From: Taxawa tesnikishii (nom. ined.)
Taxonomy: Eukaryota; Ascomycota; Dothideomycetes; Dothideales
Reading direction: 5' to 3'
NCBI GenBank assembly: GCA_030247885.1
Contig: JAPDRO010000008.1
Coordinates: 310,001 to 374,000 of the forward strand
DNA: 64,000 bases
The notes beneath the pieces were generated by a model. That model did no database searches and was not told the DNA's origin. It saw only the letters and a program-made list of their open reading frames with translations. The translations under genes and the position numbers were made by a program. Shown in pieces: positions 4,089 through 60,034 of this stretch. Numbering within the stretch: position 1 is the stretch's first letter; each line of letters opens with the position of its first letter.

Positions 4089-5969
4089 TCAGAACGGCGT
4101 ATCATCAAACACCCCACCTTGGACCCTCAATCTCGCATCCGCAGCATTCCCCCACTGCGGACCCTCAGCGGCGACAAGATAACCCAACTCACACCTGTCA
4201 AACTCGACTCTTGGAAATGCCGTGTACAGGGCATCATAGCGTGGTTTCATCGCATCTCGCAGCGAATTCACGTTCCCCGCGGATGCAACTGCCGCCAGGG
4301 CTCCGTACACTGCTTCCCCTTACAGGACTTCAGCACGAGCAAGAGCGCATCCAGCCTCGCCTCGAGCCCAGATAACGAGTGAGTGCCGTCGAGGATCGCC
4401 AGGGTGGCGTTGGCGTCGTGGTAGAGGTTCCGCAGCTGGCCCGGGTCGACAGATAAATCGTACAGTTCGTGCTCGTTGGTGCACCAGACGGCGTAGTAGA
4501 GGTTGTATTCGGGTCCGAGCACGCGGACGGCTTTGTAGGTATTGTTGTGGTGCGACGGACCGGCGTAATGGCCTTCTCCGAAGTGCGCGCCCCAGTATTC
4601 CACGTTGACGTGCTCGGCCCGCGTCCTTTTCGCCTCCTCGATCTCGGCGGCAGTGAGCGGGATGGGGAGGCCGTCGAAGGAGTAAGGGGAAAGGTCCGAG
4701 GCGCCGGCAATGCTGAGGAAGGTGGCGGCGATGTCGGTGTGCGTGGTTACGAGATCGGCGGTGAAGTTGTGAGGAACGCCGGGCCCGCGGAGAGCAAAGG
4801 GCACGCCAATGTCTTCTTCGTAGCCGCATGACTTTCCGGCTGGGAGGCGGTGCTGTCCGATGTGGTAGCCGTTGTCGGCCGTGTAGACGACATATGTGTT
4901 GTCGAGCAGGTCGAATTCGGCGAGCTGGGAGAAGAGCGTACCGACCATCTCGTCTACGGATTGGAGAGCCCGGAGGCGCAGGCGGTAGAACTCGTCGTAG
5001 TAGTCGATCACGGTCGAGTTGATGCGGGTTAGGTGGCGTATGTAACTCGCTCCCGAAACCTTTGCCGAGAGCGTTAGCGATGAGTCGCAAGACTGGGAGA
5101 CAGGGGTGTGCCACAAACCTTTTCGGGATTGAAGTTGGGTGTTCGTGGAATCCGAACATCTCGGAAGTAGTCCTTATACTTTGGTGCCGGTTCAGGAGGC
5201 GCAAAGAAGATGCCATCAGGACTGATAGTCGTGTCCGTATGCGGTGCTATGGGGGCAATGCCCAGAAAGAAGGGCTTGCCATTGCTAGCATTGGCTGCTT
5301 CGGCCAGCAGTCCGAGAGCCTTGCTGGCTACGAGGTCCGTGTTGTATTGGCCTTCGTAATTGACCGGTTCGTCCTGGTTACGGCCAAAGGTGGCATTCCA
5401 GTACCTGTACGTGTTCGGGTCGAGTAGGATGTCGGAGCTGTTCCAACCCTTGAGGTACGGCTTGTTCCAGTTGGACACTGTGTAAGAGTTGAAGATTTTG
5501 CCTGTGTAGTAGGTGTTGTAACCCGCGTCTTGTAGCCATACGGGCAGGTAGGCATCGTTCAAGCCTTGGGTTACGAATTTTGGATAGCCGCCTTGGGTTG
5601 GTCAGCTCGACAGTTCAACATGCTGGATCGGACAAGACGGGCAATGAACCATACCGTAAGGGGTGATACGTCCGTGACGTTGGTGTTGTGAGCCGCTTTT
5701 CCAGTCAATAAACTCACTCGAGAAGGACAGCAGAGAGCAACGGTGCAAAAGTGGCGAGTGTAGGTTGTGCCTTGATCTCTGATGTGTTTCTGGACGTTAG
5801 GCATATACTCTATCGAATTCATGTGCAGGTCCTGGTCATCTGTGATGATGAAGATGATATTGGGCTGCTTGTCATGGCGTTCATTGATGGGTGGGTGCGC
5901 AAAAACGTGCTGGAAGCAGCTCTGAAACGCGAGCAACAGCCCGAAAGAACACAGGATGGTCACCAGCAT
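4089..5969 (-). CDS. Secreted arylsulfatase (formylglycine type)
   Basis: Sulfatase-family enzyme that hydrolyses sulfate esters. It begins with a signal peptide (MLVTILCSFGLLLAFQ..., likely cut after VFA), followed by the metal-binding stretch NIIFIITDDQD and the formylglycine signature CCPSRVSLLTGK. Further family motifs are GYNTYYTGKIFN, GIAPIAPHTD and YTADNGYHIGQHRLP. Exons lie at 5655-5969, 5119-5591 and 4089-5059; the second intron has a GTTTGT donor. Two single-base deficits break the frame: a four-base run at 5660-5663 (needed to reach ...SPPYGGYP) and one at 4275-4278 (needed for ...LHPRGNVNSLRDAM). Adding one base at each also fixes the intron phase, so I read them as sequence errors rather than decay. 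The length (about 590 residues) is normal for fungal arylsulfatases. The exact substrate cannot be told from the sequence. Confidence 0.88.
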
Positions 5970-6928
5970 GTCTGCGGACGGTGCTCGTGGGCGCGGTGCT
6001 TGAAGGGAGGGAAAAGAGGTTTTTGGACGCCTAACCCGAACGCGTCTTCATCCTGCTTATACCGGTACCTGCATGTACGTGCACGCCATCGTATCCGCCC
6101 TTCCAGAATGTCCCCACCCGCACATACACAGAGGTTGGGACGAGACGGGATGCACGATCTTGCTTCTCGTGCGGATATCATTCGTAAGTAACAGCTAACA
6201 GCGTTCGACCCGAATCGGTTGACCGCTAGCCTTCTTGAGCTTAGCCTCCGTCCAGTTGGAGAGGGTCGAACAGCCCGCGACAAGGAACAATATCGTAGTG
6301 ATGCTGACCATTCGAAGGCCTTCATGCAAGCGATCCTCCGTCTGAATGGCTACGTGTCTCTGTTTTGTATGCCATGACACCTTCAAGCAGTACCATGTTT
6401 TCGCTCGACGCTGTAGCGAGAAGTGCCTTCGTGCACAAGGGAGGGGGTTGCGTTTTCAGATCGCAACATTTGATGTTCAATCACGCAATTGCTTGCGACG
6501 AGAGCGGTGCTCGCGCCCGTGCAACAGCAAGCGAGGCAATCAGAAAACGCATGAGTGGAAGTCCTGTGAACGTTGCGAGTGGTGAAGATCTTACAATGAC
6601 GACTTTTGCGATAGCAGATACAGAACGCCCAGTACGGCAAAGGAAATGCAAAGCGAAACAGAAAACGCCCGTCAGGAGAGACCCTTCCTCCCTGCAATGC
6701 TGTACATCCCATCTCTAACGCACATGCAACTGCAAGTCGGGTATCTGCTGCATTGTGGTCCAAACACTCAATGAAAAAGGTCAACGACGTCCCTAGCAAT
6801 CGCGACGCTGCAGGAGTGAAGAGCGTTGGTCGTACAGGAAAGGTAAACACAAGAGTCACAGTGGACTCCAACCAGATCACTTCCCCGACCCTGACGGCTC
6901 CAGCATCGATCAAGGCCCCAGTCCAGGT
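5970..6928. other. Intergenic, promoter side of the sulfatase and 3' side of FPR4
   Basis: No supported gene. A 176-codon open frame on the minus strand (6383-6913) has no family resemblance and ends against the FPR4 3' end. I treat it as chance. No RNA gene or repeat was seen. Confidence 0.55.
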
Positions 6929-8604
6929 CTACTTGATCTCAATCAACTTGATGTCGAAGGTGAGCTCCGAGTTTGGTGGGATACCCGGGAGTTTCTGGCT
7001 GCCATAGGCGAGGTGAGCAGGGATGATGATTCTGCGCTCAGCACCAACTTGCATGCCGACAACACCGATATCCCATCCCTTGATAACCTCGCCGACGCCA
7101 AGCTTGAAGCTGAATGGCTTGCCCTTCTTGTTGCTGTCGAAGACCTTGCCGTCCTTCAGCTTGCCGATGTAGCGCATTCCAACACGGTCGCCCTTCTTCG
7201 CCGCTGGGCCAGTTCCGAGCTTCTTATCGTCAATCTTGACGCCGTTTACGGTCTTTATGCCGAGACCGGCCTTGGGCTTGCCCTCGTCCTTCTTGGCGGC
7301 TGGCGAGGGAGTAGGTCCTTGCTCGAGGTTCTTGGCGAATTGAACCTTCTTGTCGCTCTTAGCGGAGGAAGGAATCTCCTCCTTTGCAGCACCAGAAGAG
7401 GCATCGGCGGCAACAGCCTTGCCCTCGTTGTTCTTGAGCTTCTTCTGCTGCTTCTTGCTGAGCTTCGCATCGCCGTTAGCAGCGCCATCAGTGGCCTTTG
7501 CGGACTTGGCGATCAAATCATCCAATGTGCTGGCCTCATCGGCGCTCTCCTCGGCGGAACGCTTGTTCTTGCCCTTCTTGTCGGCCTTTGCGGCCTTCTT
7601 TGGTGCCTCCACGAGCGCTGGCGCTTCCTCGTCATCAGTGCCAACCTCCATGATACGAGGGTCTGCCATATCATCAAGCTCGTCCTCGGACTCGTCCTCG
7701 TCCAGATCATCCTCATCCGGAGACAGATCGTATTCGTCGTCCTCGTCATCCTCCTCGTCGTAACCGTGAGAGTGCGGGGCTCGGCAGGCTCAACGTAGTT
7801 TCCGGTAAGGTAGACGGTGTGGGTACCGGAGACCTTGAACCAGACACGCTCGTCCTCGCCGATAGTAATGTCGAGTGGTTGTTGGTAGGTCTGTACGTGA
7901 CAGTTAGCGAATGTGCACGAGAGAAGAATATACTCCAGCAAGAACAGCGCGACTTGCCTTCGATGGGTCGAGTGTGCAGATGACAAACTCCTCTGGCTCA
8001 AACTCGTCATCGTCCTCGTCATCGTCCTCATCCTCATCCTCATCGTCGTCGTCGTCCGTCACAGCAGCCTTGCCCTTGCCCTTCACGCCGTTGGGGGTGT
8101 CAACGTCCATACCTTCGGCAGCAAGGTCTGCCTTGAGCTGCTTGATGGCGGCAGCTTTGCGAGCAGCCTTGCTCTTGGCTGGGTCGCTTGGTCCGCCAAT
8201 GATGTCCTCGTCCTCAGACTCGTCCTCCTCGTCATCCTCATCGTCGGAAGCTAACATGCGGTTCATCTCGTCCTCATCGAAATCGGACTCGTCGTCGTCG
8301 CCGGGAATGAGAGGCTCACGGATAAGCTTGAGGGTAGCACGAGGCTGGGCACCGGCACCAGAATCGCTGTGCTCTGGCTCTGCGCTGGGGTCGATGGCGG
8401 CCATAGTGATGCGGAACTAGACGTAGCTTGTGAGCGCATGTTGAATTTTGGGCGATGCTGAACTTGAACGGCGCAAAGAAGCGTAGACGCATGTGCAAAA
8501 CTCGAGCTTGTACTTACAGCAGCTGGAATATCAGGCCTAGCGGTAATGGGCACATCCCCAGATGGGACGGCGAGGCCGTACACAGCCATAGGAAGGGTCG
8601 ACAT
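6929..8604 (-). CDS. FPR4: Nuclear FKBP-type peptidyl-prolyl isomerase, FPR3/FPR4 type
   Basis: Proline isomerase of the nucleolar/nuclear FPR3-FPR4 type; in yeast Fpr4 acts on histone tails and rDNA chromatin. The N-terminal nucleoplasmin-like part starts with [18 protein letters not shown] (exon 1, 8518-8604) and continues in exon 2 (7958-8416, [10 protein letters not shown]...). Long Asp/Glu tracts and a Lys-rich linker follow, and the C-terminal FKBP domain ([20 protein letters not shown] ... [18 protein letters not shown]) is complete. Exon 3 is 6929-7890. The intron between exons 2 and 3 has a GC donor. One base is missing in the four-base run at 7776-7779, between ...NYVEPAEP and HSHGYDEED; this fits the window-wide homopolymer pattern. 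The gene is head to head with REV1. Confidence 0.92.
7891..7957 (-). other. GC-AG intron in FPR4
   Basis: On the minus strand the exon ends TCGAAG and the intron begins GCAAGT, the textbook GC-donor consensus; it ends GTACAG before ACCTACCAACAACC. Using this donor yields ...CTLDPSK-TYQQPLD, which matches the usual spacing in FPR3/4 proteins. The competing GT donor 24 bases further into the intron would insert eight extra residues and leave an intron of only about 43 bp. Confidence 0.75.
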
Positions 8605-8962: not shown

Positions 8963-11900
8963 ATGGGTTCCCGTCTGGAGAGCAAATCGGCCCAGGTCCG
9001 GAAGCGCATCGAGAGTCATGCCTTTGACAACGAGGAGGGAGATGAATATGAGGGTTCGAAATTCGGAGGGTTTCCGGAATACTTCAGGCGCAAGAAGATC
9101 AAGCTGCAGAATCTGGACGCTGAGTTACGCGCAAAGGCTGGCGACAACCCACCCATCTTCAAAGGCGTTGTGGCGCATGTGAATGGCTACACGCAACCAT
9201 CTTTGAACGACCTGCACACAATGATTGTTAGCCATGGCGGCGGATTTCTGCAGTATCTGGACGGCAAGACTATGGTCACGCATATCATCGCAAGCAACCT
9301 TACACCGAAAAAGGTTGTCGAGTTTAGGAGATATCGCGTCGTCAAACCTGCCTGGGTAGTAGATAGTATAAATGTGGGAAAGCTCCTACCATGGGACAGT
9401 TACAGGGTGGTTGACGAAGGTGTGGGGCAGAAGGTGCTAGGATATGACAATGGCCAGGTTACTACACAGGCTAGCAAGCAGAAAAGAGGTTACAAGGAGC
9501 AGACGGAAACAAGTTGGTACACAAGTCAGCTGCGTGGTCAGCCTTCGTCCCAGCCACGTAGCAAGGCATTTCCCTTCACCCAGACTCTGACTCCAGACGA
9601 TGATATCAACGACTCCGATTCCGAGGCGCTTGCGGAAGACATCGAGAAACCGAAGGCGGTTGCGACAAAGATATCTGATGCGCCGGTTAATGCTCAATTC
9701 AGTCCCTCTCCAGAGAAAACAGCGTCAGGCGACAATGCCGAATCCACACTTGGAACCCCACCTAAGACTAGCCCAGCAGAATCCAAACTACAAGTATCCC
9801 CTACTTTGGTCGCGCGAACTAGCCATCTGCCTTTTGGCCGTCCAGATCATTGGGACTCTGACGGCGATGAACCTCGTGGTGTCAAGCGGTCGATCTCTCC
9901 ATCAAGGGCGGCGAAGATGACTGCAGAGGAGCACAACGCTATCCTCCTTGCAGACCCTCGGATCCGTAAATCAACCGTCGTCGACCCGAACTTCCTTGAA
10001 CAGTACTACCGGGAGTCAAGACTGCATCATCTTTCGACATGGAAGGCAGACCTGAAATCGCAGTTGCAGGCCATGACAGCTGAAAAGTCGCTATCTCAGA
10101 AGGCAAACCAAAAAGGAAACCAGGTGCAAGACGTTACATCATGCATGTCGACTTCGACTCGTTCTTTGCCGCCGTCTCACTGAAGAAGTTTCCACAGTAC
10201 AAAGACAAACCGTGTGTCGTAGCTCACGGAGGTGGTACTGGCTCGGAAATTGCGAGCTGCAACTACCCGGCGAGGAAATTCGGCATCAGCAACGGCATGT
10301 GGATGAAGCGGGCTCAAGATCTGTGTCCGGAATTGAAAGTGTTGCCCTACGACTTTCCAGCTTACGAAGAGACCAGTCGCAAATTCTACGACGCTATCCT
10401 GGCGACAGGCGGCATTGTCCAAAGCGTCAGTGTTGATGAAGCTCTCATTGATATCAGCGCGCAATGTATAGCCACAGGCGGCTCTGACGGCGTGCGGCGT
10501 AATGAAGGAGCCCAATATCGCGAGCAAGCCAAAGCGGACGAGATCGGACAGGAACTTCGAGCTCGCGTACTTGAAGTGACAGGCTGCAATGTCTCTGTCG
10601 GTATAGGTGCCAACATCCTGCAAGCGAAGGTCGCGCTTCGAAAGGCCAAACCGGCAGGGCAATTCCAACTCAAGCCAGAGGAGGTTCTTGGCTTCGTTGG
10701 AAATCTCGAGGTGCAGAGCCTTCCAGGAGTGGCGTACAGCATCGGAGGCAAGCTTGAGGGTGTCGGGATACGGTATGTCAAGGATATCCGTGACTTCTCC
10801 AGGGAGAAGCTCATCAACACCCTGGGCCCAAAGACGGGGGATAAGATGTGGGAATATGCACGAGGCATTGATAGGACCGAGGTCGGCGATCAAGTTGTCC
10901 GCAAGTCTGTTTCTTCTGAAGTAAACTGGGGAGTGCGATTCGAAAACCAAGAGCAAGTCGACGAGTTCATTGAGAGCTTGTGTGGCGAGCTTCACAAGAG
11001 GTTGCTCAAGGGAAAGGTCAAAGGTCGTCAGCTTACGATGAAGGTGATGCGCCGCTCTCCTGACGCACCGCTTGATCCGCCTAAGCATTTGGGGCACGGC
11101 AAATGCGATACTTACAACAAGAGTTTGCAGCTCGGTATTGCAACCAACGACCCTGCCATCATCACCAAAGAGGCGTTGGCGACAATGCGCGGTTTTGGTT
11201 TCACTCCCGGTGAGCTACGTGGCATTGGCATCCAGATGACAAAGCTGGAGCCGTTCAAGGGTGGAACTGATGGGAAACCCGAGAGCAGCCAGCAGCGTCT
11301 GCAGTTCAAAATGGGTGAGCCGTCCAGACCGAAGCCTGAGCAAACCGAAGACCCCATCCACGACGATATCGAAACTCCAAAGAAGCGACCACGTCTCCGT
11401 GACATTGACGATCGACCCGTGGCACCTCCCTCCAACCTCTTTAACACCAACAGCCCAAGCCGGAAACCTCTCAACATCCTAGGCACACAATTCGCATTGC
11501 CCACCCAAGTCGATCCCAAAGTCCTCGCTGAGCTTCCCTCCGACATCCGCGCCAAGCTCACTCGACACGTCCGTCCAGCAGCAGTACCAGAACTGGCGCC
11601 GGTGGAACAAAAGGACCCCTCCAACCCCTTCACTCGCGCTCAATCAGTCACCCTCGCGCTCCCCTCCGAGTCGCAACTTGACCACGACACCCTCAACAGC
11701 CTGCCCCCTGATATCCGCGACGAAGTCCTAGCCTTCTACAGCAAACCTCCTCTCTCTCCGCGCAAACCTGGCGCTGCGCGCGAGCAATCTCTGCTTCCGC
11801 AATCACCTCGCAAGAACCGCCTCCTCCCCGCAGGTGTGACCAAAAAGCCACGCGCGGCAGACCTCGTGGCGGCGGGCTTTTCGCTCGATTCAAAAAGGTG

Positions 11901-12574
11901 AAGGAAGCAGGGATAACGCAACACTGACGCAGAGCAACTTCATCCTAGCACGAGCACGGGACCGTCAATCCAGCCACGAGCCCATAACGGCTTCTGAGCG
12001 CGCAGAGGACGATGCGCAGCTGGACCCAGAATTCCTGGCCGCGCTGCCGGAGGATCTACGCCGCGAGGTGCTCGCACAAGCGCGCCTCGCACGACTCCAA
12101 CGGACCTCGAACCTCTCCGTGCCCCCGCGCGCCCACAAATCCCGACCGCGGGAGTTACCGAAAGGACAGGAGACACTGGAGCGGAGTTTCCTGCTTCCTC
12201 CGCGCAAACCTCAGCCTACCTTCACAGTCCAGAAGCTTAGCGAGATTGGCGATCTGAGAGAAGCGATTAGCGACTGGGTGCGAGAGTTCGGCACCGAGGG
12301 CCCGTATGGCGAGGATGTGGAGGCGTTGGGGAAGTATTTGGGTGCTGTGGTACGCGAGGAGAGGGATTTGAGTAAGGCGGTTAGGGTGTGTAAGTGGCTC
12401 GGATGGGTTGTTGAGAGAATGGAGGAGGAGAAGGGAGACGGAGACGGAGACGGAGGCGGGACTGGCGGGACTAGTATAGCGAAGGAGAAGTGGGTGGAAG
12501 TGGCAGAGGGGGTCAAGGAGGCAGTAAAGGAGGCGGTTAGGCAGAGGGGGTTGGCGGAGGTCGATCTTGGGTAG
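8963..12574 (+). CDS. REV1: DNA repair protein REV1, Y-family dCMP transferase
   Basis: Translesion synthesis polymerase that inserts C opposite abasic sites and scaffolds polymerase zeta. An N-terminal BRCT domain (about residues 55-145; FKGVVAHVNGY, MVTHIIASNL, KPAWVVDSI) leads to the Y-family catalytic core with both signatures, MHVDFDSFFAAV and SVSVDEALIDI, then little-finger sequence, ubiquitin-binding-like LDPEFLAALPEDLRREVLAQ, and a helical C-terminal domain that in homologues binds partner polymerases. About 1,200 residues, normal for REV1. No intron is needed. The frame is broken by one missing base at each of three runs: A5 at 10110-10114 (just before RRYIMHVDF), T4 at 11878-11881 and A5 at 11892-11896. 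Between them they separate ...AADLVAAGF from NATLTQSNFI. All three are consistent with homopolymer under-calling. Confidence 0.93.
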
Positions 12575-13195: not shown

Positions 13196-16100
13196 TCAAG
13201 GAAACCTTGTGCGCGCCTTCCTAAGGAGATCCTCGGCGTTACGCACTAACCACGCTTCAGGGAACCGAGGCTCTGGCTTGGGATTGTCTGGGTCTTCGAG
13301 TGCAGGGTATCTCTTCGCTGGATTCGGAAGATCTCTTCCCGGAAATTTCTCATGATCCCAGTAATGGATCAACGGGCCGTCAGGGGTCTCCCTATAGACC
13401 TTGCCGGGACAGGGGCGTATAGGGCTCTGCTTAGGAGTGATCTCGCTGTTGTCGTTAGGGTTCAGGCCAGCGATGTCCCCCACGTCTTCATCGGACATGG
13501 CGTTCTCCTCCACTGTAGTGTTCGCCAGCGCCGCAGCGGTCGCCCGCGTCGTCGCCCTGCGCTTCTTTTCCAACTCACCAGCAGCCCATCTGTTGTAGTG
13601 AGATGCGAGTCCGCCGTAGGCAACTCTGATGGGACAGATGGCGGGAGGGTTCCTCTGGTTCCCGGCACGGTTCTCCATCATGTTGACGGTTTGGTTCCAG
13701 ACACCACCAGGGGCGGTAGCAGCACGCATCATCTTGGCATTGCCGAGAATATAGAGACCGCACCTCGCACGGCTCAAGGCGACACAAATGCGGTTGATGT
13801 TGCTCACGAAGCCGAGCTGCTTGTTCTTGTTATTGCGAACGAGTGAAAGGAAGATAACGTCATTCTCCTCGCCCTGGTATGAATCGACGGTGACGACCTT
13901 GATACGCCAATCAAACGGACGGGTCTCCCGGAATTCCGAAAAGGCTTTGATGATCGCCTTGCGCTGACCATTGTAGAATGTCAGGACGGTTACCTGTTCT
14001 GGTCTCAGGCCTTTCTGGACGAACTTGGCACAGTAGCGGACGATCATCTTCGCCTCCTCCGGGTTGAAGTAGGAGCATAACTCATCCCTCTCCTCTGGAT
14101 TAGTATGGTGAATAAAGCAAGAGTTCACACCCTTTGCACCTGGTACGTCCGGGCGGTTTCCGAGGTCGCGAACAGATTCGTGGTCTTTGATGTGTCCGCC
14201 GTAGATAGTGTAAAGGAGGCGGCTAATCTCTGGCTTCATACGGCGCTGCACCCTGAGTTGAGTGTATTCCACTCCATTATCAACGAGACGTTCGAATAGG
14301 GAGGTGTTGAAGTGATACGGAGAGTACTCTAAGAGCTTCAAGTGGCAGTGCGGCTTCAATTGTTGGTGGTCGCCAACGAGAATTGTATGCTCAACGGAGG
14401 GGAGGAAGGTGGCGGTGACAGGGCCCTCGAGGACCTCGGCCGCTTCTTCGATGAGAACGATATTGGACCCTAAGGTGGCCAGGGATGCGCGATGCTTGTT
14501 GAAACCTGTGAGAGTACAACCGATGATCTTCTGCGCTTTGAGAATGGGAAACTCCTCCTCCATCTTACCGATGCGACGTTCATTAACCGCATCATTGTAC
14601 AGCTTTGCCAGGGCTCGAAGGCGACCTATCACCCTGGCTTTGAACTGCTGGGCCATCCACGCGTAAAGGTTACCGCGAAGTCGCATGGGTACCTTGTTCA
14701 GGTCCTGGAACTCGGGCTTGGTGAGTAGGCGGACGTAGTCTTCGTCACCCGGTTCTTTCTTGGTAATTGGAACCACGTTAACGGTGTACAACTGCCCCAG
14801 GCGTTTGAAGTTGCCGTTGAGATGAACATCGCCGATCTTGAGTTCTTCGGCCTCGTGCTCATGGAGTTCTTCGGCGTCGTATTGGTCTGAGCTAGACAAT
14901 CCTAGGCCACGTGGCCTGACAGAGATCTCAACCGGCAAAAGATTGCCTCTCAGCCAGCGAGCCATTGGACTGGTAAGCATAGGGTCGACATTGTCTGCGG
15001 TGGCCCAGTCATCTTCGAGTGATTCCGCCTGGGCTTGGCTGAGGAAGCCGGCATCACACAGTACAAGATGAGAAAGAATGCCCTGCTCTGGCGTCTCTAC
15101 CAGATAAGGAGACAGCAAGTCCAGCATCTGCTTCTCGATGGCGTCCATGGTCTTCATAGCCCGTCTTCTGGTCTTTCCAGGAAGCAACATGCCAAGCTGG
15201 TCTTTGATCTCGTACATTGTGCGCTTGCGGACGAGCTTATCCTGTGTGCGACTTCCGAGACGTATGAACGGAGGTTCCTGGTGTGGATCAATGTTGGCGA
15301 CATGACGGAGCAGTTGATCTAGAGCGTGGTTCGTCTGACAGGCAATGACGATCGGGGGTCCGTGGGTCTATGGTTGGCAAGAAGAACCTTCAGTGCCTGG
15401 ACAGACACGTGAGTCTTGCCTGTTCCTGGAGGTCCTTGGATGATCGAAAGCTTCTTTGTCAACATTCTCCTCAAAGCCTCCTCTTGCGTATCGTCGAGAT
15501 TGGGTGCAGGGCCCTCAGGCCATTGGTCGAGCATGTCGACGGTTTCAAGGCACCTGTGTTCGGACTCATCCCATTTTCCGTAAACAGGACTGAGATCAGA
15601 CCAGACTCTTGGCAGCAGATATTCCGGGGTCCGACGGTCTTCTTCACGTTCACAAGGTGCTCATCCACGGCCGGCGGACACCTGTAACGGGTCAGTGTTG
15701 GAATTGCATCAACGAGGGGTGGACACGTACCCTTGTCTCATCATCTGCTGCAGGCCCAATAGTGTGTAGCGTTCCGCTTCGAAATAGCTTCCACGATGCT
15801 CGAGCATAGCCCACTGCTGTAGCGGGTCAAACTCAAGATCTTGAGTGTTGACAAAAACCAGGTCGATCTCGGGGTAGTCTTTCTCAAGAAGGTCAGTTGG
15901 ACGAGCGGCGACCCTGGCCACGACGATGTGGCTACGGAACATGTCGTGGACCGGTGAGAGGACGACAACTGTTCCAGCGAGAAGACGCTTAGACATGTTC
16001 CAAAGAATCTTCTTGCCGCAGCGAGCGGCGGAGAAGGCGACACGAGTGGATACTCCTGGACAGAGAAAGTGATGCCGACGATGTACACCTGAGAGTGTTA

Positions 16101-16686
16101 GTGCTGTAGCATCTCGCTGCAAAGAGGTCAACGTACCTTGTCGTAGTACCCTAGGCCCGGGTAGTCGTCTTCGGTACAGCCTGGGTTATCCCTGACATAG
16201 GCAATGGTGTCTCTCAAGGGACGAATGGCGTCTTCACGGGTGAGCTCATATTGGGTACCAAGATAGTCCTCTGCAGCAAGGAGTAGATGTCAGCAACGGC
16301 CAGCGAAGGAGCAGGGCGCACTCACCTGTCGAAGGGTATTGACCGCGAAGGACGTTGTTCGGAAGCTTGGGTGATTTGTCTGCGGTGAGTTCATCAATGG
16401 AAGGAAATTCTGGCTTCCCTCGCCAGTCGATTCTCCTTCTGTCTCCCTTCTGCATATCGAGGTAGGTCCTGAGTTTCGCGGTTCTGGGAGGAAGGGGGTT
16501 CGGAGGTTGAGCGTTCTCGAAGAAGGCGTCGAATCGACGCGTGCTTTTCTCTACAGCGCGACGAAAATCGCTGTTGTTGTGCGGCCTGGGGCGGCTCCAG
16601 CTCTCAAGGACTTCTGTGTCCGTTGTTGAAGGGTCAGAGTACGTGCTGTTGACGCAATTAACCTCGTCAGAGAATGGATCATCCAT
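13196..16686 (-). CDS. SF1 RNA helicase, ZNFX1/Hrr1-like (RNAi-linked family)
   Basis: Upf1-like superfamily 1 helicase related to animal ZNFX1 and fission yeast Hrr1, proteins tied to small-RNA silencing and heterochromatin. It starts at MDDPFSDEV (16686). Exons include about 16326-16686, about 16138-16270, one ending near 15732, and a long last exon from about 15680 to 13196. Motifs in order: CPPAVDEHLVN, Walker A GPPGTGKTH, QTNHALDQLL, IVLIEEAAEV, VGDHQQLKPH, VTVDSYQGEENDVI and VALSRARCGLYI. The protein ends about 130 residues after the last helicase motif, so the C-terminal NFX1 zinc fingers of ZNFX1 are absent. Single-base deficits break the frame at 15354-15358, 15626-15629 and near 16055. 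ZNFX1-like is preferred over SEN1 because of the CPPAVDE region and the N-terminal layout. Confidence 0.82.
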
Positions 16687-18708: not shown

Positions 18709-20957
18709 ATGGGGGCTTTCGAAGACGAGGATGACCCTACAGCAGGTAGCGTTAATAATTCTCCTCCACTGCATTCGCTGACCCCTGGCTAGCTTCCGGC
18801 GACGAGTCTCAGGATGAGGACGAGAACATGGACGATATCGATGAAGTAGATGCTGACGCCGATGCCGACGCTGACGCAGAGGGCGACGACGCTGAAGGAG
18901 ACAATGACGAGGATAACGAAGACAATGACGAGGACGAAGATCAAGAGGAGCTCGAATCGCCTTCACGGAGTCAATCGCGGCGCCAGAGCAGACCAAACGA
19001 CCAGTCTCCCAGAACCGACAGACCTCCTAACCCTACTGTGCTCCTGACTTCGCCCTCTCCCAAGCCTTCAGCAGCACGCTCGCACCAGATTGTGGATGAA
19101 TACGTGCCAAGCGTGCGTCTTGAGGCGCTTACGGCCTCCGTCTACGATATCGTGCCTACCATGGCAGCTCCACAAGGGACTTCAATCAACTCGGTCACTG
19201 CAACACCGGATATGCGCTGGGTTTTCAGTGGAGGAGCGGATGGATATATACGGATGTACAACTGGGTGGAAACGGCAAACGGCAAAGTGCCGCTCACAGT
19301 CGCGCAGAAGCATCCGTTTGTGGATAGTGTGATGAAGGCTGGCTCTCTGACTACTTATTGGGAGAACGAGGAAAGTTCAGGTAGGAGATCCAAGCTCAAA
19401 AGTAGCTGCTGCCAGAGTGGTACTGACTTTGGAGCCAGTCCGCACACCGCCTGCGCAGTCTGCAGATCCAGGACAACCCAAGGACTCATCGCCGGTATAT
19501 TCCTTAGCTGTACACCATGAAGCAGTCTGGTTGCTATCCGGTCTGGAATCGGGAGGTATTAACCTCCAAACCTGCAGACATCAAGCAGGCACGCGCATCA
19601 CCACACTACGTGAACACACTTCAGCAGTTTCAGTTCTGAATCTCGCACATGATGAAATCTCTTGTTTGTCTGGCAGCTGGGACAAAGTCATACACGACTG
19701 GGACCTAAACACTGGTAGAGTCAAGCGGTCCTTCAGAGGCAGTGGAGGGCAGATATCCGCCATCGAGAGACGTCCATTGTCGTCTGTACCTATTCCAACG
19801 ATCACAGAAGATCAACTAGAGTTGTCTCAGACGTTTTCTTCCAACAACATCAGCAAACCATCTGCGAACGGGGAATTGCTCAACGGCGTGGGAGGCTCCG
19901 AAAGGAAGAATTCAAAGACCAGCCAAAACGGAACCGAAGATGCCCCAGGATCGCCTGATGGATCGCTGTTCGGCGACGATGATCACGGCTCGCTCTTCGG
20001 TGACAACGATACCGCCAACGGTAGCGGCGGAGCGTTTGGTGAAGACGACGACGACGAATTCAGCAGAGCAATCGCCAGTGGTCTCGAGCAAACCCAACAG
20101 GAAGACGCTGCTCCCGGCCAAGACGACGAAATGACAGACATCAACTCCGGCGGACCAGTTCAACCTCCGGAGGCTCCCACGACTCAACTGCAATCAAGCG
20201 ACACAGGAGCTGCAGTCGAGGCCGTCGATCACATACCGATACCGCCTGCGCGGTTAGAGACTCAGCTCTCCAACGGCCTTCCGCATTCGGAGGAGGATCC
20301 CGGCGCCACTTTAACCAACGGACACACAACTGATGAGGATGTACAACCTACCTCGGACTCCACTTTTCTCGATGCATCAATCGACGGAACGATACGTATT
20401 TGGGATCGGCGAGTCGCGACGCCCATCGCCCGCATCCTGCCACCGCGCAATACGCCGCCGTGGTGCATGGGTGCCTGTTGGTCACCGGACGGCAACTTCT
20501 TCTACGCCGGTCGGCGCAACGGAACGGTGGAGGAGTACAGCGTGCACAAGGGCCTGCGCATGGCGGAACCACGGCGCACGTTCAAATTCCCTGCCGGAAG
20601 TGGAGCTGTGAGCGCGCTGAGGACGATGCCCAACGGAAGGCATTTGGTCTGGTGAGTTCCTTTGGCGTTTGCTTGTCGTTCGTGGCGCGTAGGTGTGGAT
20701 GTGTGCTAATGTCGGAAACAAACAGTGCTTCGTACGACATTCTGCGTCTGTACGACCTGCGCGAGCAGGAAGGGGCTGGAACGAGACACTCGGCCGTCCC
20801 CTTCCTGATTGTGCCTGGACATCGCACAGGCGTCATTAGTGCTCTGCACATCGATCCGGCGTGTAGATTTATGATCAGCACGGCGGGGAACAGAGGCTGG
20901 GAGGGCAGCTCGACGGAGGTGCTGCTAGGTTACGAGATCAACATTCCAGGAGCATGA
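18709..20957 (+). CDS. SPT8: SAGA complex subunit SPT8, WD40 protein
   Basis: WD-repeat subunit of the SAGA coactivator that in yeast contacts TBP. Four exons: 18709-18745, 18793-19380, 19439-20651 and 20726-20957, giving 689 residues with an intact frame. The N-terminus is an acidic tract (Asp/Glu/Ala repeats from about residue 15 to 70). Then come the family hallmarks YDIVPTMAAPQGTSINSV, TPDMRWVFSGGADGYIRMYN and AQKHPFVDSVMKAG. WD repeats continue (SGSWDKVIHDWDLNTG, DASIDGTIRIWDRR, WSPDGNFFYAGRRNG), interrupted by a long low-complexity insert of about 180 residues rich in Gly, Asp and Ser. The last exon ends in GWEGSSTEVLLGYEI. The 13-residue first exon (MGAFEDEDDPTA) joins the acidic tract in phase. 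Nuclear location is inferred from the family. Confidence 0.93.
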
Positions 20958-32926: not shown

Positions 32927-32939
32927 GATACGGACATGA

Positions 32940-38477: not shown

Positions 38478-38518
<41 letters not shown>

Positions 38519-42300: not shown

Positions 42301-45202
42301 ACTCGGGACCTTTGCGCGGTTCTCAACGAGCACGTCTTTTCCTCGTAGCCGACCCAATCCTTGAACCACTTGAAGAGGTCCGGATTTCCGCCGATGAAAC
42401 TCTGCGCCCGGTGGACGAGCATGGTGCGATCGATCAGGTCTTGTGAAAACAGGTTGCACAGCTTCAGGAACTCGTTCATTGTGTTCTTGTTGCCGATCAC
42501 CTTCTTGGCGCGGTCGAAGAAGCTCAGCTCTTCACTTGTCGCGATCGAGCTGGTGGTCGGTGGCAGAGGCTCGGGCAGAGCAGGCACCAAGGAAGGTGAG
42601 ACTGGCGCTGCGCCGGGCGCATCTGGCTGTCTGGCACCGTGTGTTTGTTTCGCGCGCTGTAGTAAAGACAGATAGTCAGTTTGGAACCTCACTTCGCTTG
42701 TCGGCCACGAGTGAGGGTTAGGAATGAAGTGCACGGCCATTTTGTGTCTTGCTGCGCCTAACTCCTGCCACCGCTCCCAGCCACAAGCTTTTGCACTCAC
42801 GAAGAGTTTCTGACTGCGCAGCAGAGAGACGGCCAGAGCGTGGTGCAGGAGAGGATTGATGGCGGATGCGAGGGCTCGATTTCACGTGACGCCAAGAAAA
42901 GGGTTAAATCGCGTTTCGTTACGTACCTTGGCTGTAGCACTGACCTGACCAAATCCATTCGTCACTTTCGCTGCGCTTGCACTGCTCTCAGGCAACATTC
43001 CGCCGACGTTGCTGGCGACCGTACCCTGCCTGTCCCCTCTCTTCCTCTTGTTGTCTTTGTTGACCGTAGGAGTAGGAGCAAAGTTCCCAACAGGCGGGAG
43101 GCGGTGTTCCGCTCTTGGTGTCTGATGCGGTTGAGGTCCTTGACCGGGAGTGTAGAAGGGCTCGCCGCGGACGTTGCTGAGCATGACGGCGTCTTCCGCC
43201 TGCTGTCGCGCCGCCGCCGCCGCTTTGGCGTGTGCCGCAGACTCTGGGAGAAATTGTTTGAAGTCTTCAAGAAGGTCCGGAGCGGTGTGGAACAAGCGTG
43301 TTACTTGCCCGTAGACGTCCTGTATCGGCTTCGACTCCCGCTGGTATGTCTGTAAGATCTCCAAAAACTGCTTGTAGATGTCGGGCTGTGAAGAGAAACG
43401 GTTCTTGATCTTGTTAACGTAGCTGATAGCGTGGTTGAACTCGACGGGACCGCGCTGCTTCTCCATCCCAGCGCCGAGAGCTTGTCCGTCAGGCCCAACA
43501 CCGCCCATCTCCTGACCAGGCAACGGAGTACTGGAGCCGCCAGGGGCGACATCAAAGCTTGTCTGGGCAGAGTACCTGTTGCGGCAGACACTGCATTCGT
43601 CAGTTGCGAGACGCCTCGCTGCTCTTGCTGATGCACGAGAGCTTGTTGCTCACGTTGTGCTTCCAGGGAAGCCATTCCCTGCTGCGGCTGCATCTGGCCA
43701 CCGAACGGCGCAGGACCAACTGGTCTTCCGCTTGGGCTGAGTAGCATCTGTTGAGGGTGGCCCGGCTGAGGCGTCCAGGTACCGTTGACCGCTCTGGGCC
43801 CAGCGTTGAAAACAGCGCCATCACCGCCAGCATTGTCTTGAGCCGTTGCAGCACTCCTTGGATTCGACAGTGGCCTTTGGGGTTGCGGCATGGACTGCAC
43901 CGTGGTACCCATAGGCGTTGTCACTCTGATTGCATTGGGATCGTCACCAGTGCCGCATTCGATCCTATATCCAGGCGGTAGGAACGTATTGAACCCTTGA
44001 ATCAACTCTGGATTGCCTGCAAACAAAGAGGAAACACGGTCGATAACTCCTGGAGTGTCGATACTGTCACCTGTTAGTTCGCCTTGCCGATCCACATCTC
44101 ACAGAGAAAGCACTCACGCTCCACTCTTAAAGTCCTTCATGATGTCCAGGAACCTGTTGTAAACATCAGGATGCTCCACAAACTGGACCTTGACTTGGTC
44201 GAGGTAGCTCAGAGCGTCGTTCAGAATCGGCTGTTGTCCTTGTCCGACGCCTGCGACCGGCGCACCGGCGCCAAAAGGCACCATCAAGCCAACTTGCGCC
44301 TGTTGTGCAGACTGGGCAGGAGGTTGCACAGGACCGCCAGCGAAAATGCCGGCTGGTCCTACAGGTGCTCCTAGCTGTGGATGTCCGTTCGGGCCCGCGA
44401 TGGCAGCCGGATTTCCTAGCAAACCGTTGGGTCCGTGTGCAGTGCGCGGTCCAATGGCAACTGGCTGATGCAGATGTATGGGACCGGCTGGCGTTTGATG
44501 AGGAGGCACCTGTTCAAGATGTTGCCTTTCTCGAGCGTCGCGCTCCCGTTGTTGATCGCGCCGGAACGCGGCGTCCTGCTCTTCTTTGATGTGAACTTCC
44601 CTTGCGTCGCGCTCTCTTGAATCTGTGGACCCCATAACATGATCAGCCTGGCGCATTCTCTTATGTCCTTCTAGAACCATACCATGCATGGGAAAGCCGT
44701 GGGTCGGTTGCTGGCCAGATTGGCCTTGGGGAGGATGTCGGGGAGAGGACTGGCCTAACCCAGTGATGTTTGGCAGGCTGTGTCCGGCTTGTTGAAAGGG
44801 AACGAAAGGTCCTGACGAGTCCAGTGTGAGCGATTTAAGAGCATAGGAAGAGATCTTGTGCCAGATTGCGACTTACCGGCCTGTGGGGGCCACCAGCGCT
44901 TCCGTGAGGAGACGGCTGAGGTTGATGACTAGGTGTGCCCGGTCTGCGGATAGCGTGAAAGTTAGCAGCGTGAGCCTTGTGACGTAAAAAGAGAGTAGGG
45001 TGGGATGAATGAAGTTTTATTTTTCCGGCACAAGCTCTCTATGCCCAGCAGTCCACCTGCAGCAGCCGACAACTTCGTCGAGACGGACATACCCAAAGCT
45101 GGCACCCGGCCTGTGTGGTTGTGTTTGCTGCTGTTCATTGTTCTGATGCGGGTTGCCTAGGCCCGGTGCAGGCGGCCACCCGTCTCTGTGCGCAGGGTTC
45201 AT
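39336..45202 (-). CDS. SIN3: Transcriptional co-repressor SIN3
   Basis: Scaffold of the Rpd3/HDAC co-repressor complex. It starts at [14 protein letters not shown] (45202), followed by a short exon ([18 protein letters not shown]) and one starting [13 protein letters not shown]. Three paired amphipathic helix domains follow: PAH1 ([38 protein letters not shown]), PAH2 ([19 protein letters not shown]) and PAH3 ([18 protein letters not shown]). The HDAC-interaction region is complete ([34 protein letters not shown]). C-terminal blocks include [34 protein letters not shown] and VNDFTGV. At least seven introns; one of 547 bp stays open in frame. Single-base deficits occur at 43565-43567, 42337-42340 and 41098-41102. 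About 1,550 residues, normal for fungal SIN3. Confidence 0.93.
41691..42237 (-). other. Unusually long, in-frame open intron of SIN3
   Basis: The donor is AAAAGG|GTACGT and the acceptor CTTCAG|GAAAGG; removing it yields [18 protein letters not shown] as expected for SIN3. At 547 bp it is about ten times the usual intron here. The reading frame used by the downstream exon has no stop across it, and its last third encodes a basic stretch ([15 protein letters not shown]) and [15 protein letters not shown]. It may be an intron, may contain an alternative exon, or may be sometimes retained. Confidence 0.6.
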
Positions 45203-46236: not shown

Positions 46237-48548
46237 TCATGCAACAGCCGGGGCCTTCTTGCGACTGAACAGCGTCCTGGCCCTCGACCTGGATGGCGTC
46301 TTGCTCGCCTTGTCCGCGATCGAAACACTCGTGTCCTTCGTCGCCGATGCGGGTGTGCCAGGAGTGGGCTCGTCCATGTACTTAGGCTTATATATCCTGC
46401 GGCGCAGTAAGCACGACCGATCATGTGCCTACAGAGACATGGGGATAAACTTACCAACTGTTGCCTGCCATGCTCATCCCACCCTCAGCTGCCTTCCTGT
46501 AAAGACCCGCAGCCTTCTTCAGGTCTTTCTTACAACCCACGCCCTGGGTGTAGCAGAATCCCGCCTCGGCAAGAGCGTCACAGTCTCCCCAGGCGCCCGA
46601 AATCTCATAACAACGCAGCGCGAGAGCCTTATCTTTGGGAACGCCCCACCCGTTCATGTAAGAGATGCCGAGCTCGTAAACAGCCAAAGCAAACTGCGTC
46701 CTACGCTCCGCAATCTGCGCTGCAGACATCTGAGGACTGTTGCGCATGACAACCGTCAGCGGGTCCACATCTTTGGTAAGGTCCAAACCCGACGTGTCGA
46801 GGGCCCTCTTCAGCCATTGAACGCCTTCCGCCTTATTTTCCCGCATACCCCAGCCGTGCCGACAGGCAAGAGCGTACAGCAGCATTGCTGTCGGCAGACC
46901 GGCCTTGGCAGCTAGCCGAAGATGGTATGTGGACTCGCTCAGCGAACCGGAATTATGGCACTCAATACCCTTCTCGAGATGCTCTTCTGGAGTCGTTCCT
47001 GCCATGTCACGCGAAGGACTGTTCCGCACGTGCCCCGCCCGGATAGTACGGTCTGTGCTGGATGAAGTGACAGAAGGCGACGAGGGAACGGATTTGTGCA
47101 TTGCTCTTATCTGGAGACTCTGTGGTGGTTCTGCGGATCGACTGCGGTTGACACTCGAGCCTGGACCGTCCGGTACGATGGCTTCGGTTTTTGCCCGTTG
47201 AATGTCAGGGCGCGTCGGCGACAATGCCGCTTCTGGCTCTGGCACATTATGCGGTTGAGAAGGCTCTTCGTATGAAACTTGGTGTCTTGACCATGAATCT
47301 CGATTGCCGATAGCGTTCTTCTCTACTGTTCTCCCTCGAGGTAGCGAATACTTCGCATATACGTACGAAGGGGCTCCGTCCGCGGTAGGATTGACAGATG
47401 TTGAAGATTCATCTCCACTGAAGATGGCATCATCTATAGTAGAATTGTCTGCCCGTACCATGGGCGTGCTGCTTGCAGATGCCAACGAGCCAGCAGAATA
47501 CTCTCTTTCCAAACAGATTGGAGCTGGTGGTCTACTCGCCTGGTCGAATGATGGCCGCTCATCAAACGATTTCTGAGGCTCAAAATAGGACTTGTTCCCG
47601 GAGCTACTCAAAGGCCTAGAAAAGTTGAATGATGGTCGAGGTAGCTGGCTGTTCGTTGAGTAATCCGACTTCACTGAGGGCGAACGACAGACAGGGTGCA
47701 TATCCGGTGTGATTGGCGAACGTGGTCCGGACATGTAGCTGCTGTTTGACGATTTTCGTGGAGCCAGAAGGTCACCACTCTCCGATGCGTCATCATCAGC
47801 GAGGACCGATCTGATGCTTGCAATGCTCCGTGGCGATCTAGGATGCATAGGTGATTTAGGAGGGGCCAGACCATTCGCGTGTCTCTGGGAATACGAGGAC
47901 TCATTCGTAAGCGTGCGTGGCTGGGAGGACTGAAGGGAATCTATGCTGCTTGTCAAGCTTGGAATTGCCGGAACAGGATCAGCCTTGTTCGGCCGCGAAT
48001 CCAGTGGTTCTGGAGAGGACGCCCTTGGTACATTGATTCCAAAGTAGCCGCAGTCGTTGTTGCTGCTGCTGTTGCTTCTGTTCCGTTCAGGGTCGAACCA
48101 TGTCCTGTTCGGCATGTCTGGATTGTCCTTCTCCTTCACATTACTCAATCTTGGGTAGTGAGAAACAGGTCTCTCGTCGTGGGCAGCGACCCAAGGCGAC
48201 GACCTATTGTCCCAGTCCTCCTCTTCATCTTCCACATCTCTCAGCGAACTCTCCGAACCGCTGGAGAAGGCGCGGAAGTAGTCCGGTCGCTTTGCAAGCT
48301 CGCTGGCTATCTCATCGTGTGGCAGTCTGCTTACTCGCCGGCCGCTCTTTTTCGCTTTTTCTTCGAACCTCTTCTGCAACATGCGTGAGTGTAGGGCGAA
48401 CTGATCCAATGGCGAGAGCGCAGGGGCACTTCCCCGCGCGAGGTGAAGGCAGGTCCATGTAGAATCGTGGGGATACCGGACGCTGGGAGTTGCCTACGTG
48501 GGCGTTCTTTGCGCCGGAAAGGTCGAGGAACTTCGGTCGGTTGGCCAT
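46237..48548 (-). CDS. Sel1-repeat protein, Nif1/DSF2-like
   Basis: Long disordered protein with C-terminal Sel1 (TPR-like) repeats, as in the fission yeast mitotic inhibitor Nif1 and budding yeast Dsf2. It starts MANRPKFLDLSGAKNAHVGN (48548). The FYMDLPSPR segment leads to the conserved ALSPLDQFALHSRMLQKRFE, then about 400 Ser/Pro-rich residues, and Sel1 repeats (HLEKGIECHNSGSLSESTYH, LLYALACRHGWGMRENKAEG, VYELGISYMNGWGVPKDKAL, AEAGFCYTQGVGCKKDLKKA). A last exon at 46237 to about 46397 encodes YKPKYMDEPTPGTPAS and ends LFSRKKAPAVA. One base appears missing in each of two four-base runs, 48423-48426 and 48432-48435; together they join the head to the body. Role in cell-cycle or septation control is inferred from the family only. 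Confidence 0.85.
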
Positions 48549-52895: not shown

Positions 52896-54154
52896 ATGCC
52901 TGTACATAGCGAGCTGAGGCGGCCTGATCCGGAAGCCGCAGAGAAGCGGAGGGTATGCGATTCGGGAATCTATACAGAACTGCGCCGCTGACTGAAGCAA
53001 CTAGGTGGTCGGCATCAACCCGGAGACGGTCACCAACGTCTCTTCGACAGATTTCCCTCACCACTACCAGGGCGAAGACCATGCCTGGGACGTTGATTTC
53101 TTTCGAGAAGTAGTACACCTCCGTCAGCTCTGCGCCAGCACTCCCACTAACACCAAGGTCTTCCAGCACCTCCGCGTGGACTTTCACAAGAACAAGTCCT
53201 ACGACTCGGTTTTCTCCCTCATAGGCGTGGACGCCGCTATCGCAAACGCTTTCCGTCGTATCATGCTCGCAGAGCTTCCGACCCTCGCTATCGAAGATAT
53301 CTTCATGTTCAACAACACCTCCATCATCCAAGATGAAGTGCTCTGCCACCGACTCGGACTTATCCCCTTACAGGCTCCTTCGAGGGCCTGCGCCAGATGC
53401 GCTGGTTCAAGAAGAAGCCCTTTGACATTTCCCTCGGACCCCAAGCACAAGACGCCCCCATAGAGGGCGCTGAAGACCCGGACACCGTACCATCGGACCA
53501 GAACACAATTGTCATGGATCTGCACGTAAAGTGTGAATGGCGGCCAGACGGCATGAAGCTGGCCAAGCAGGGCGAACGTGATCCAGAAAAACTCTACGTC
53601 AACAGCTCCGTCTACGCGTCTTCATTCCAATTTGTGCCGCAGGGGAACCAGCTCCAATTCTTTTCCGAGCCGAACCATATCCGGCCAGTGAATCCCGGAA
53701 TCCTGATCGCGAAACTGCGCCCTGGGCAGGAGATCAAACTGCGCTGTCACTGCATCAAGGGTATCGGCGCGGACCACGCTAAGTTCTCACCCGTAGCGAC
53801 GGCCTCGTATCGATTACTCCCGACCATCACGATCAAGGAACCCATACTAGGTGCAGATGCGAAGAAGTTCGCGCGCTGCTTCCCCAAGGGCGTTATCGAG
53901 CTGGTTGACGATGAAGAGACGGGAGAGAAGAAGGCGGTCGTCAAGGACACGATGAAAGACACCGTTTCGAGGAGTGCTTGCGCCACGACGAATTCAAGGA
54001 TAAGGTGCAGTTGGGCAGATTACGCGACCACTTCATCTTCAGCGTCGAGAGCACAGGCCAGTTTGAGAGTGACGAGCTCTTCCTCGAGAGTGTCCGCGCG
54101 CTCAAGGTCAAGTGCGAGCGTTTCAAGAGGAATTTGACGGATCTCATGAGCTAA
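52896..54154 (+). CDS. RPC40: RNA polymerase I and III subunit RPAC1 (RPC40)
   Basis: Alpha-like subunit shared by RNA polymerases I and III, acting in the nucleus and nucleolus. Exon 1 (52896-52952) encodes MPVHSELRRPDPEAAEKRR; a 52-bp intron follows; exon 2 starts VVGINPETVTNVSSTDFPHH. The alpha-motif region is clear (GVDAAIANAFRRIMLAELPT, LAIEDIFMFNNTSIIQDEVL), then RHRLGLIPL-like sequence, QMRWFKKKPFD-like sequence, and a C-terminal FESDELFLESVRALKVKCER. Two single-base deficits split the frame: C4 at 53364-53367 and a GG at 53971-53972. With these allowed for, the stop is TAA at 54152-54154. About 370 residues, somewhat longer than yeast Rpc40. Confidence 0.93.
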
Positions 54155-57021: not shown

Positions 57022-60000
57022 TGTCGGACTCAGAAGACGACAGGCCCCTAGTTCAGGGTACGTGCAGCAGCTCTTGTCTGCTTCCCGTTTCCTTGTATTG
57101 TCATTTTCTCTCCACAGGGGAAGGCAAAGGCCCGGAATGCCCTACTCGATCTGGCACGCTCGCGCAACTCCTGGAACCGGTCTTCTGCCTCACTAAACTC
57201 CCTCACTGCACTATCGTCCCTCTTTGCAATCTCATTTATCACCCTTCACCGAGATCGCAACCGACACCTTACTGATATATTCGTTTTCAGCCAAGTCAGC
57301 CGACCACATCGACAAGAGCACCGACGACGCCATGGATGTCGACAATCCCTCCTCCAACGGTCAACTTGAGCCTGGTGTTTCTGTTCGCATGGGTCCCGTT
57401 TTAGACGAAAAGACCGGCGCGCCAGTCAAGGTCGGCACGAACGGTACCACCAACGGAAAGCGCAAAGCAGCCACCAACGGTCGCAAGAGTTACAAAGAGG
57501 AGAGTGGGTCTGAGGACGAGGATGATGAGCCTCTGGTGGGTATCTTTTTGGGTCAACCAGGGGTTATCTCTGACCGCTGTCTAGAATAAACGTCGGAGGA
57601 CTACCACAAAGAAGGCGGTTTCAGAATCAGACGAAGATGACGAACCCCTCATCAAGCGAAATCAGCGAAAGCCCCCAAAGCGACTGCCGAGCAGATCGGC
57701 GAGGAATCAGACTCAGATGTCCCACTTGGCCAGAAGCTGAAGAAGGTAAAAGCAGACATCGAGGCCAAGGCAGAGAAGGAGGCCAAGGCTTTGCGCGAAG
57801 AGAGCGACGACAGCGACGATCAACCTTTAAAGAAGCAAAAGAAGGCCTCTGCTAAGAAGGGCCAGGCCAACCGCGTGAAGAAGGAAGAATCGGACGATGA
57901 TGCGCCTCTCAAGAAGGCTCCTCCGAAGAAAGGCAAGGCAAAGGCGGAGTCAGCCACACCAGTGAAGAAGGGCAAAAAGGCCGTTAAGGAGAAGACAGAA
58001 GAAGACAAGGAGGCCGAGGAAGAAGAAGAGGAATACCGCTGGTGGGAGGACCCAACCAAGGGCGACGGCACCAAGAAGTGGACAACCCTGGAACACAATG
58101 GCGTCGTTTTCCCACCGCCGTACGAGCCGCTACCCTCCAATGTCAAGATGCGCTACGACGGCGTCCCGGTCAGCCTTGATCCAGAGGCCGAAGAGGTTGC
58201 TGGTTTCTACGGCAGCATGCTCAATTCCACTCACAATGTCGAGAATCCAACCTTTAACAAGAACTTTTTGCCGACTTCAAGGAAGTGCTCGACAAGACCG
58301 GACACGCCACTGACAAGAACGGAAAGAAGGTGAAGATTCTCAAGTTCGAAAAGTGCGATTTCAAGCCGATATTCGAATACTACGACTCTGAGCGCCAGAA
58401 GAAGAAGGCACTGTCGGCTGCGGAGAAGAAAGCCCTCAAGGCTGAAAAGGACGCAGCTGAGGCACCGTACATGTACTGCCTCTGGGACGGTCGCAAGCAG
58501 AAGGTTGGCAACTTCCGCGTCGAACCTCCAGCACTTTTCCGTGGCCGCGGTGAGCATCCGAAAACCGGCAAGGTCAAGAAGCGTGTCATGCCCGAACAGA
58601 TCACGATAAACATCGGCAAAGAGGCCACCGTGCCAGCTCCTCCTAAGGGCCACCAGTGGAAAGAGATCAAGCATGATCAGGAGGGCACATGGTTGGCAAT
58701 GTGGCAGGAGAACATCAACGGCGCATACAAATACGTTATGCTTGCCGCCAATTCCGACGTCAAGGGACAGTCTGACTACAAGAAGTTCGAGAAGGCTCGC
58801 GAGCTGAAGAAACACATCGACAGAATTCGCAAGGACTACCGTCGCGATCTGAAGGCCGAGCTGATGGCAGACCGTCAGCGCGCTACTGCCGTCTATCTCA
58901 TTGACCAGTTTGCTCTTCGTGCAGGCAATGAGAAGGGTGAGGACGAAGCTGAAACTGTCGGTTGCTGCTCGCTCAAGTTCGAGCATGTCACCCTGAAGCC
59001 GCCAAACACCGTCATCTTCGATTTCCTGGGTAAAGACTCCATTCGCTTCTACAACGAGGTTGAGGTTGATTCCCAGGTCTTCAAGAACCTGAAGATTTTC
59101 AAGAAGGCTCCGAAGAAGGAGGGCGACGAAATATTTGATCGTCTGTCCACCAGCGCGCTCAACAAACACTTGAGCAATTACATGCAGGGACTCACTGCCA
59201 AGGTCTTCCGTACATACAACGCTTCTTGGACCATGTCAAATCTGCTCCAGAAGATGGAAGCTCACGGTACCATCGCGGAGAAGGTCGCCAAATATAACGA
59301 AGCCAATCGTGAAGTCGCCTTGATCTGCAACCACAAGCGTACAGTCGCAGCCGGTCACGCCGCGCAGATGGAGAAGATGCAGGACAAGATCGATGCCTTG
59401 ATATACCAACAATACCGCATCAAGCAAATGATGCTCCAGCTTGACCCCAAGCTCAAGAAGAGGAAGGGCGCGGAATTCTTCGAGATACCAGAGAAGTTCG
59501 ATAACGAGTGGGTCAAGAACCACCATGCCGCTCTAGTGGAAGAACAGCGCACCAAGATCACCAAGAAGTTCGAGAAGGACAACGAGAAGCTCGTGGCTGA
59601 AGGCCAGAAGGAAATGAAGGCTAAGGAGCTTGACGAACGTCTGGAGGTCGCAAATGAGCTTGAGACGAAGCTGAAGAAGGAGTTCAAGACCGGCAAGGTT
59701 GAGCCCGAGGGCAAGGGACCTACGGTCGAGAAGTTGGAGACGCAGATTGAGAAGCTGCAGCAGCGTATCGAGACCATGAAGCTTCAGAGCGAGGATAGGG
59801 AGAACAACAAGGAGGTCGCTCTGGGCACTTCTAAGATTGTAAGTCACGGAGTGAGAAAAAGCGTTTAGTACGCGTTGTGGACGCTTACATATTTGCTAGA
59901 ATTACATTGATCCTCGTCTCACGGTCGTCTTCAGCAAGAAGTTCAATGTGCCTATCGAGCGCTTCTTCTCCAAGACTTTGCGCGAAAAATTCGACTGGGC

Positions 60001-60034
60001 CATCAAGAGTGTCGATGAGGACTGGGAGTTCTAA
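57022..60034 (+). CDS. TOP1: DNA topoisomerase I (type IB)
   Basis: Nuclear enzyme that relaxes supercoils through a 3'-phosphotyrosyl link. Exons: 57022-57058 ([12 protein letters not shown]), 57291-57535, 57585-59838, 59900-60034; about 890 residues once two deficits are allowed for. The N-terminal third is charged and disordered (Lys/Glu-rich, nuclear signals). The core begins [20 protein letters not shown], with [68 protein letters not shown] and [13 protein letters not shown] coiled-coil linker follows (about 740-840). The last exon opens with [20 protein letters not shown], which contains the active-site Tyr. One base is missing at A3 57659-57661 and at T5 58265-58269 (joining NKNFF to [11 protein letters not shown]). 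Confidence 0.97.

Follow-up and report, generated by a model that had tools for sequence, protein, structure and literature searches.

According to the accessible text of its report, the nanopore-only assembly of the fungus Drechmeria coniospora contained homopolymer-length errors comprising both insertions and deletions, and polishing added further insertions (PMC7500977). Systematic indel errors of nanopore data are the target of Homopolish, which applies homologous polishing, as described in the accessible text of that paper (PMC8011154). We investigated a window of 64,000 nucleotides (the whole stretch of DNA that was analysed; positions 310001-374000 of contig 33) from the assembly of Taxawa tesnikishii (nom. 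ined.), which comprises 29.37 Mb in 34 contigs. Its gene content (TOP1, SIN3, RPC40, SPT8 and REV1) and its short introns are in keeping with a fungus. One-base deficits, almost exclusively of this one sign, occur in the window and throughout the genome; they are enriched in homopolymer runs, and essential genes are hit. We consider it about 97% probable that the consensus of this draft assembly drops single bases, mainly in runs of at least four, through homopolymer under-calling, and that the genes are whole. Very probably, the apparent breakage reflects a common sequencing error rather than biology.

Codon usage was first learned from 88 long open frames, which comprise 36,191 codons and have a third-position GC of 0.63, and then retrained on the coding calls of the first model. 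The frame model allowed introns with a length prior, and it charged one-base deficits and surpluses the same penalty. The first model, which this one replaced, left intron length unconstrained, and long introns swallowed shifts. With that first model, the ratio of deficits to surpluses was 7:0 (window) and 21:1 (other stretches) at the middle setting, where the lone surplus fell on the final base of a stretch, and 10:1 and 33:4 at the loosest. At the middle setting of the final model, every one-base step called was a deficit: 10 over the 36.2 kb of coding sequence in the window and 28 over the 111.6 kb of coding sequence in 20 other stretches of 10 kb, two flanking the window and one each on contigs 1 to 18, with 0 surpluses in either set. 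The ratio of deficits to surpluses in the window and in the other stretches was 9:0 and 18:0 at the strictest setting, and 13:0 and 40:3 at the loosest. The preliminary description had held that all changes have the same sign, which nearly holds: it is true at the middle and strictest settings, and at the loosest three surpluses appear outside the window. Planting 177 deletions raised the deficit calls from 38 to 100, and planting 177 insertions raised the surplus calls from 0 to 66; errors of both signs were recovered about equally, near 36%, and the frame model is without sign bias. Since 10 deficits were called in the window at a sensitivity of 35-37%, about 28 are present there, in agreement with the roughly 25 claimed previously.

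The deficit rate per kb of coding sequence was 0.28 in the window and 0.25 in the 20 stretches, which lie on 19 of the 34 contigs. Counts per 10-kb stretch ranged from 0 to 6 with a variance about twice the mean (hand calculation), which is more uneven than chance. Stretch L022 (contig 18, 100001-110000) was the densest of the 20, with six deficits in 7.7 kb of coding sequence. It holds a broken gene with DNA ligase domains and BRCT, which we take to be of the ligase IV type, and hand arithmetic gave a frame change with a deficit remainder in this gene. The frame-model deficits at 8500-10000 of stretch L017 received no confirmation from Pfam. In the window, Pfam was applied over most of the length to the strands judged likely to be coding rather than to all six frames, and outside it to portions of three of the 20 comparison stretches.

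To relate the frame changes to homopolymers, we compared the 38 frame-change zones with random coding zones of equal width in 2000 draws. Runs of at least four were present in 29 of the 38 zones versus 11.0 expected (sd 2.7), and runs of at least five in 11 versus 1.9 expected; none of the 2000 draws reached either count. Runs of at least three, found in 36 of 38 zones, are not strong evidence, as random zones yield 30.3, and the other two zones have no run of three or more. Because the recorded coding sequence holds 862 runs of length 4 and 144 of length at least 5, longer runs are struck more often per run. The earlier claim that the sites lie in homopolymer runs is upheld as an enrichment, with some sites outside long runs. 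No C or G run of at least six lies wholly inside the 148 kb of coding sequence, versus nine in 116 kb of other DNA, and runs of exactly five number 162; with counts from this genome alone, the near-absence of long C/G runs is only suggestive as a sign of under-calling. The zones shared no feature that we found beyond run length, and the run contexts were varied.

Fourteen runs had been listed individually in the preliminary description, and the printed start, base and length of all 14 match the record exactly. A local codon-usage score, computed on the strand of the assigned gene with no intron model, was taken to back a site when a one-base deficit beat both alternatives with a positive score. 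By this score nine of the 14 were backed as one-base deficits (4275, 7776, 10110, 26139, 36526, 37983, 41098, 53364 and 58265), with weak support at 4275, a gene end, and at 26139. Five were not: at 5660 and 15626, which both touch predicted introns, all readings on the gene strand scored below zero, and at 32361, 36143 and 48423 a surplus or no shift scored at least as well as a deficit. Pfam bore out the names given to the FPR4-type gene, the sulfatase, REV1, the SF1 helicase (ZNFX1 type), the MutL-type gene, RRF, SIN3, Sel1, RPC40 and TOP1. For the "velvet-like" and "WICEFCEYE" genes, named without coordinates, plus-strand frames at 20970-26350 and 29400-32950 had no Pfam match at E<=0.01.

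In several genes of the window, both the frame model and the local score supported a deficit. The SIN3 co-repressor gene (39336..44656, minus strand; PAH, Sin3_corepress and Sin3a_C, with several introns) has a single frame change of deficit sign near 41098, and the gene for an FPR4-type nucleoplasmin-like/FKBP prolyl isomerase (6929..8404, minus strand; NPL and FKBP_C) has one near 7776. REV1 (8963..12574, plus strand) carries BRCT, IMS, IMS_C and REV1_C in two frames; a deficit-sign change, with a zone of 62 bases, was called at 10133 and separates BRCT from the polymerase domains. By the frame model, the SPT8 beta-propeller gene (18709..20957, plus strand; Pfam) has a change near 18757, where an earlier model setting read an intron. 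The frame model also called a deficit near 32353 in a coding region without a name (31274..32939, plus strand); taken by itself, the run listed at 32361 there is ambiguous.

Other genes gave mixed results. The ZNFX1-type SF1 helicase gene (13196..16686, minus strand; ZNFX1, AAA_11 and AAA_12) has one frame-model change near 16050, and the listed site 15626 falls within a predicted intron of 144 bases, which may itself conceal a shift because it is long for this genome. The sulfatase gene (4268..5969, minus strand) lies in three frames, with Pfam Sulfatase split into positions 1-73, 74-194 and 200-300; the listed site 5660 adjoins a predicted intron and 4275 is weakly backed. In the MutL-type mismatch repair gene (34691..37354, plus strand; HATPase_c_3 and DNA_mis_repair), the local score backed 36526 and not 36143, and the frame model read an intron of 184 bases with no shift. 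The site at 37983 in the ribosome recycling factor gene RRF1 (37714..38848, minus strand; PF01765) was backed by the local score and received no frame-model call. The site at 48423 lies just upstream of the called start of the Sel1-repeat gene (46237..48382, minus strand; Pfam) and was not backed as a deficit. The gene for the NADH dehydrogenase 49-kDa subunit (about 51157-51891, minus strand) is conserved and has domain positions 20-264 of 271 in one frame, with no visible deficit there. A partial glycoside hydrolase family 31 domain (about 49906-50446, minus strand) covers profile positions 5-165 of 328; the remainder was not seen in the frames searched, and the fragment is either a relic or another broken gene.

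Further evidence came from alignment to proteins of known structure. TOP1 (DNA topoisomerase I; 57389..60034, plus strand) carries Topoisom_I_N, Topoisom_I and Topo_C_assoc in two frames (Pfam), and we found one frame change in the conserved DNA-binding domain, in a zone at about 58255-58280 that is exactly one base short. Upstream of the change the translation aligned to chain 1a31_A, and downstream of it to 2b9s_A (presumably the human and Leishmania enzymes, respectively), and at the junction the codons of neighbouring residues start two bases apart, not three. A further change near 57657 was called by the frame model alone, and an ordinary intron lies at 59839-59899. RPC40 (RPAC1, a subunit of RNA polymerases I and III; 52896..54154, plus strand) lies in three frames that match successive parts of RPAC1 chains. 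At its second change (zone about 53960-53980), the two frames meet at the same residue of chain 7aoc_C with one base too few; the deficit near 53970 is firm, and the longest run in the zone is three. At its first change, near 53364, the alignment excess is 59 bases, probably a longer loop with one base missing. RPB3, the third subunit of Pol II (L008:2800-4300, contig 4), showed frame changes by protein alignment, and the next codon firmly begins one base early at two places. A third deficit is probable, as it was called by the frame model while one side of the alignment was not significant (-1.2 bits); the gap between the second and third changes fits an intron. At the firm sites of TOP1, RPC40 and RPB3, conserved residues resume directly past the change. 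RPC40 and RPB3 are the only PF01000 matches of the genome, and both are broken. We searched the genome for a second copy of the RPC40-TOP1 stretch and found none.

It is very unlikely that the recorded DNA is correct and that thousands of nuclear frames are restored in life at short runs by -1 ribosomal slippage, polymerase slippage or single-base insertional RNA editing. Such recoding would leave the same deficit sign and run contexts if it proceeded by a -1 slip, and all tests made here were at the DNA level. However, the sites share nothing found beyond run length, some have no long run, and RPB3 would need two or three efficient events in one gene. Among the papers listed by our literature search, there was no report of recoding of this kind for fungal nuclear genes.

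To extend the comparison to the whole genome, we examined matches to five families, Cpn60/TCP1, SNF2, Rpb2, HSP70 and tRNA-synt_1 (63.5 kb of matches), and kept 33 match pairs that lay on one strand, at most 1500 bases apart and in rising order. Junctions were divided at an excess of 45 bases, a limit chosen after the data were seen, with no pair between 38 and 49. All seven junctions below the limit had a deficit remainder, four of them exactly -1, and the remainders of the 26 larger junctions were split 9/9/8. No intron fits at five of the seven short junctions because the two matches overlap; at the other two (an SNF2 relative and an HSP70 relative) the gaps are 74 bases and an intron is still conceivable. 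Members of the CCT, Rpb2 and HSP70 families are among the broken genes. Deficit density was lower in these domains (7 in 63.5 kb) than by the frame model (38 in 148 kb), in part through reduced visibility near domain ends, where each side must match alone; the rest of the difference is unexplained.

These junctions bear on the possibility that most of the changes are unrecognised short introns that alter the frame, which we regard as highly improbable. Some of the roughly 25 sites may be introns: predicted introns are touched at 5660 and 15626, and the 59-base excess at the first RPC40 site corresponds to one possible GT-AG pair. However, introns are expected to shift the frame in both senses, as the intron-sized junctions with their even split do, and no room for one is left at TOP1, the second RPC40 site or the first two RPB3 sites, where the following codon begins a base too soon. 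At the first RPC40 site the only usable GT scores -7.1 as a donor, and the frame model and local score favour a missing base over a 59-base GT-AG intron; the splice model itself leans against that intron because it was trained on consensus introns.

The frames in the record are truly broken, as decaying pseudogenes in a reduced or relic genome would be, but true frameshifts have very little probability, since decay would be expected to leave indels of either sign and of various sizes rather than 38:0 single steps (middle setting, only one-base steps being modelled), conserved residues resume at once at the firm sites, and polymerase subunits with no second copy found are affected.

We therefore return to homopolymer under-calling in the assembly. 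Polymerase subunits such as RPC40 and RPB3 are essential, and under-calling is the most likely cause because it cannot be that all the essential genes hit, for which we detected no other copy, are nonfunctional. The equal rate elsewhere and the broken polymerase subunit genes without a second copy found indicate that the fault belongs to the assembly rather than to this locus. The cause proposed in the preliminary description is thus supported by the single sign, the enrichment in runs, the genome-wide occurrence and the breakage of essential genes. Against it stand the three surpluses at the loosest setting, the two of 38 zones with no run of at least three, the uneven counts per stretch, the lower deficit density in conserved domains, and the L017 deficits that Pfam did not bear out. 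Each base dropped within a gene would shift the frame by the same step, so that an intact gene would look split, and the real genes are very probably whole. We infer that the under-calling arose most likely in a long-read consensus without polishing by accurate reads.

The genome also contains dispersed 5S rRNA genes, with 47 matches listed; those that were aligned represent several sequence types. Of these matches, 44 of 47 have the full 120 bases, a proportion that is not discriminating at the estimated deficit rate. The copy in the window (60879-60997, minus strand) has 119 bases. Its missing base was rejected as evidence, as this copy differs at many positions from 20 other aligned copies.

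These results concern those who use the record rather than biology. Gene models built on this assembly would be split, or would contain spurious short introns, spurious pseudogenes and incorrect C termini, at about 0.7 broken places per coding kb by the sensitivity-corrected frame model versus nearer 0.1 by conserved domains. Claims of gene loss for this genome need a check against reads first.

Compared with the published cases, this assembly resembles those treated with Homopolish, in which, by the accessible text, homopolymer indels that alter reading frames persist after polishing with reads; the proportion of insertions to deletions reported there varies by tool and data set, and we did not use it for the sign (PMC8011154). 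It differs from that of D. coniospora, for which the accessible text documents both signs and the nanopore platform (PMC7500977), in that almost only deficits are found and the fault is known from sequence alone. Given that both signs occurred in that published case, a particular pipeline would be required to produce a one-sided pattern. The two assemblies are alike in that homopolymer errors, very probable in the present one, shift the frames of conserved single-copy genes genome-wide, and the damage is of a kind that, according to the accessible text, is missed by similarity-based completeness scores (PMC7500977).
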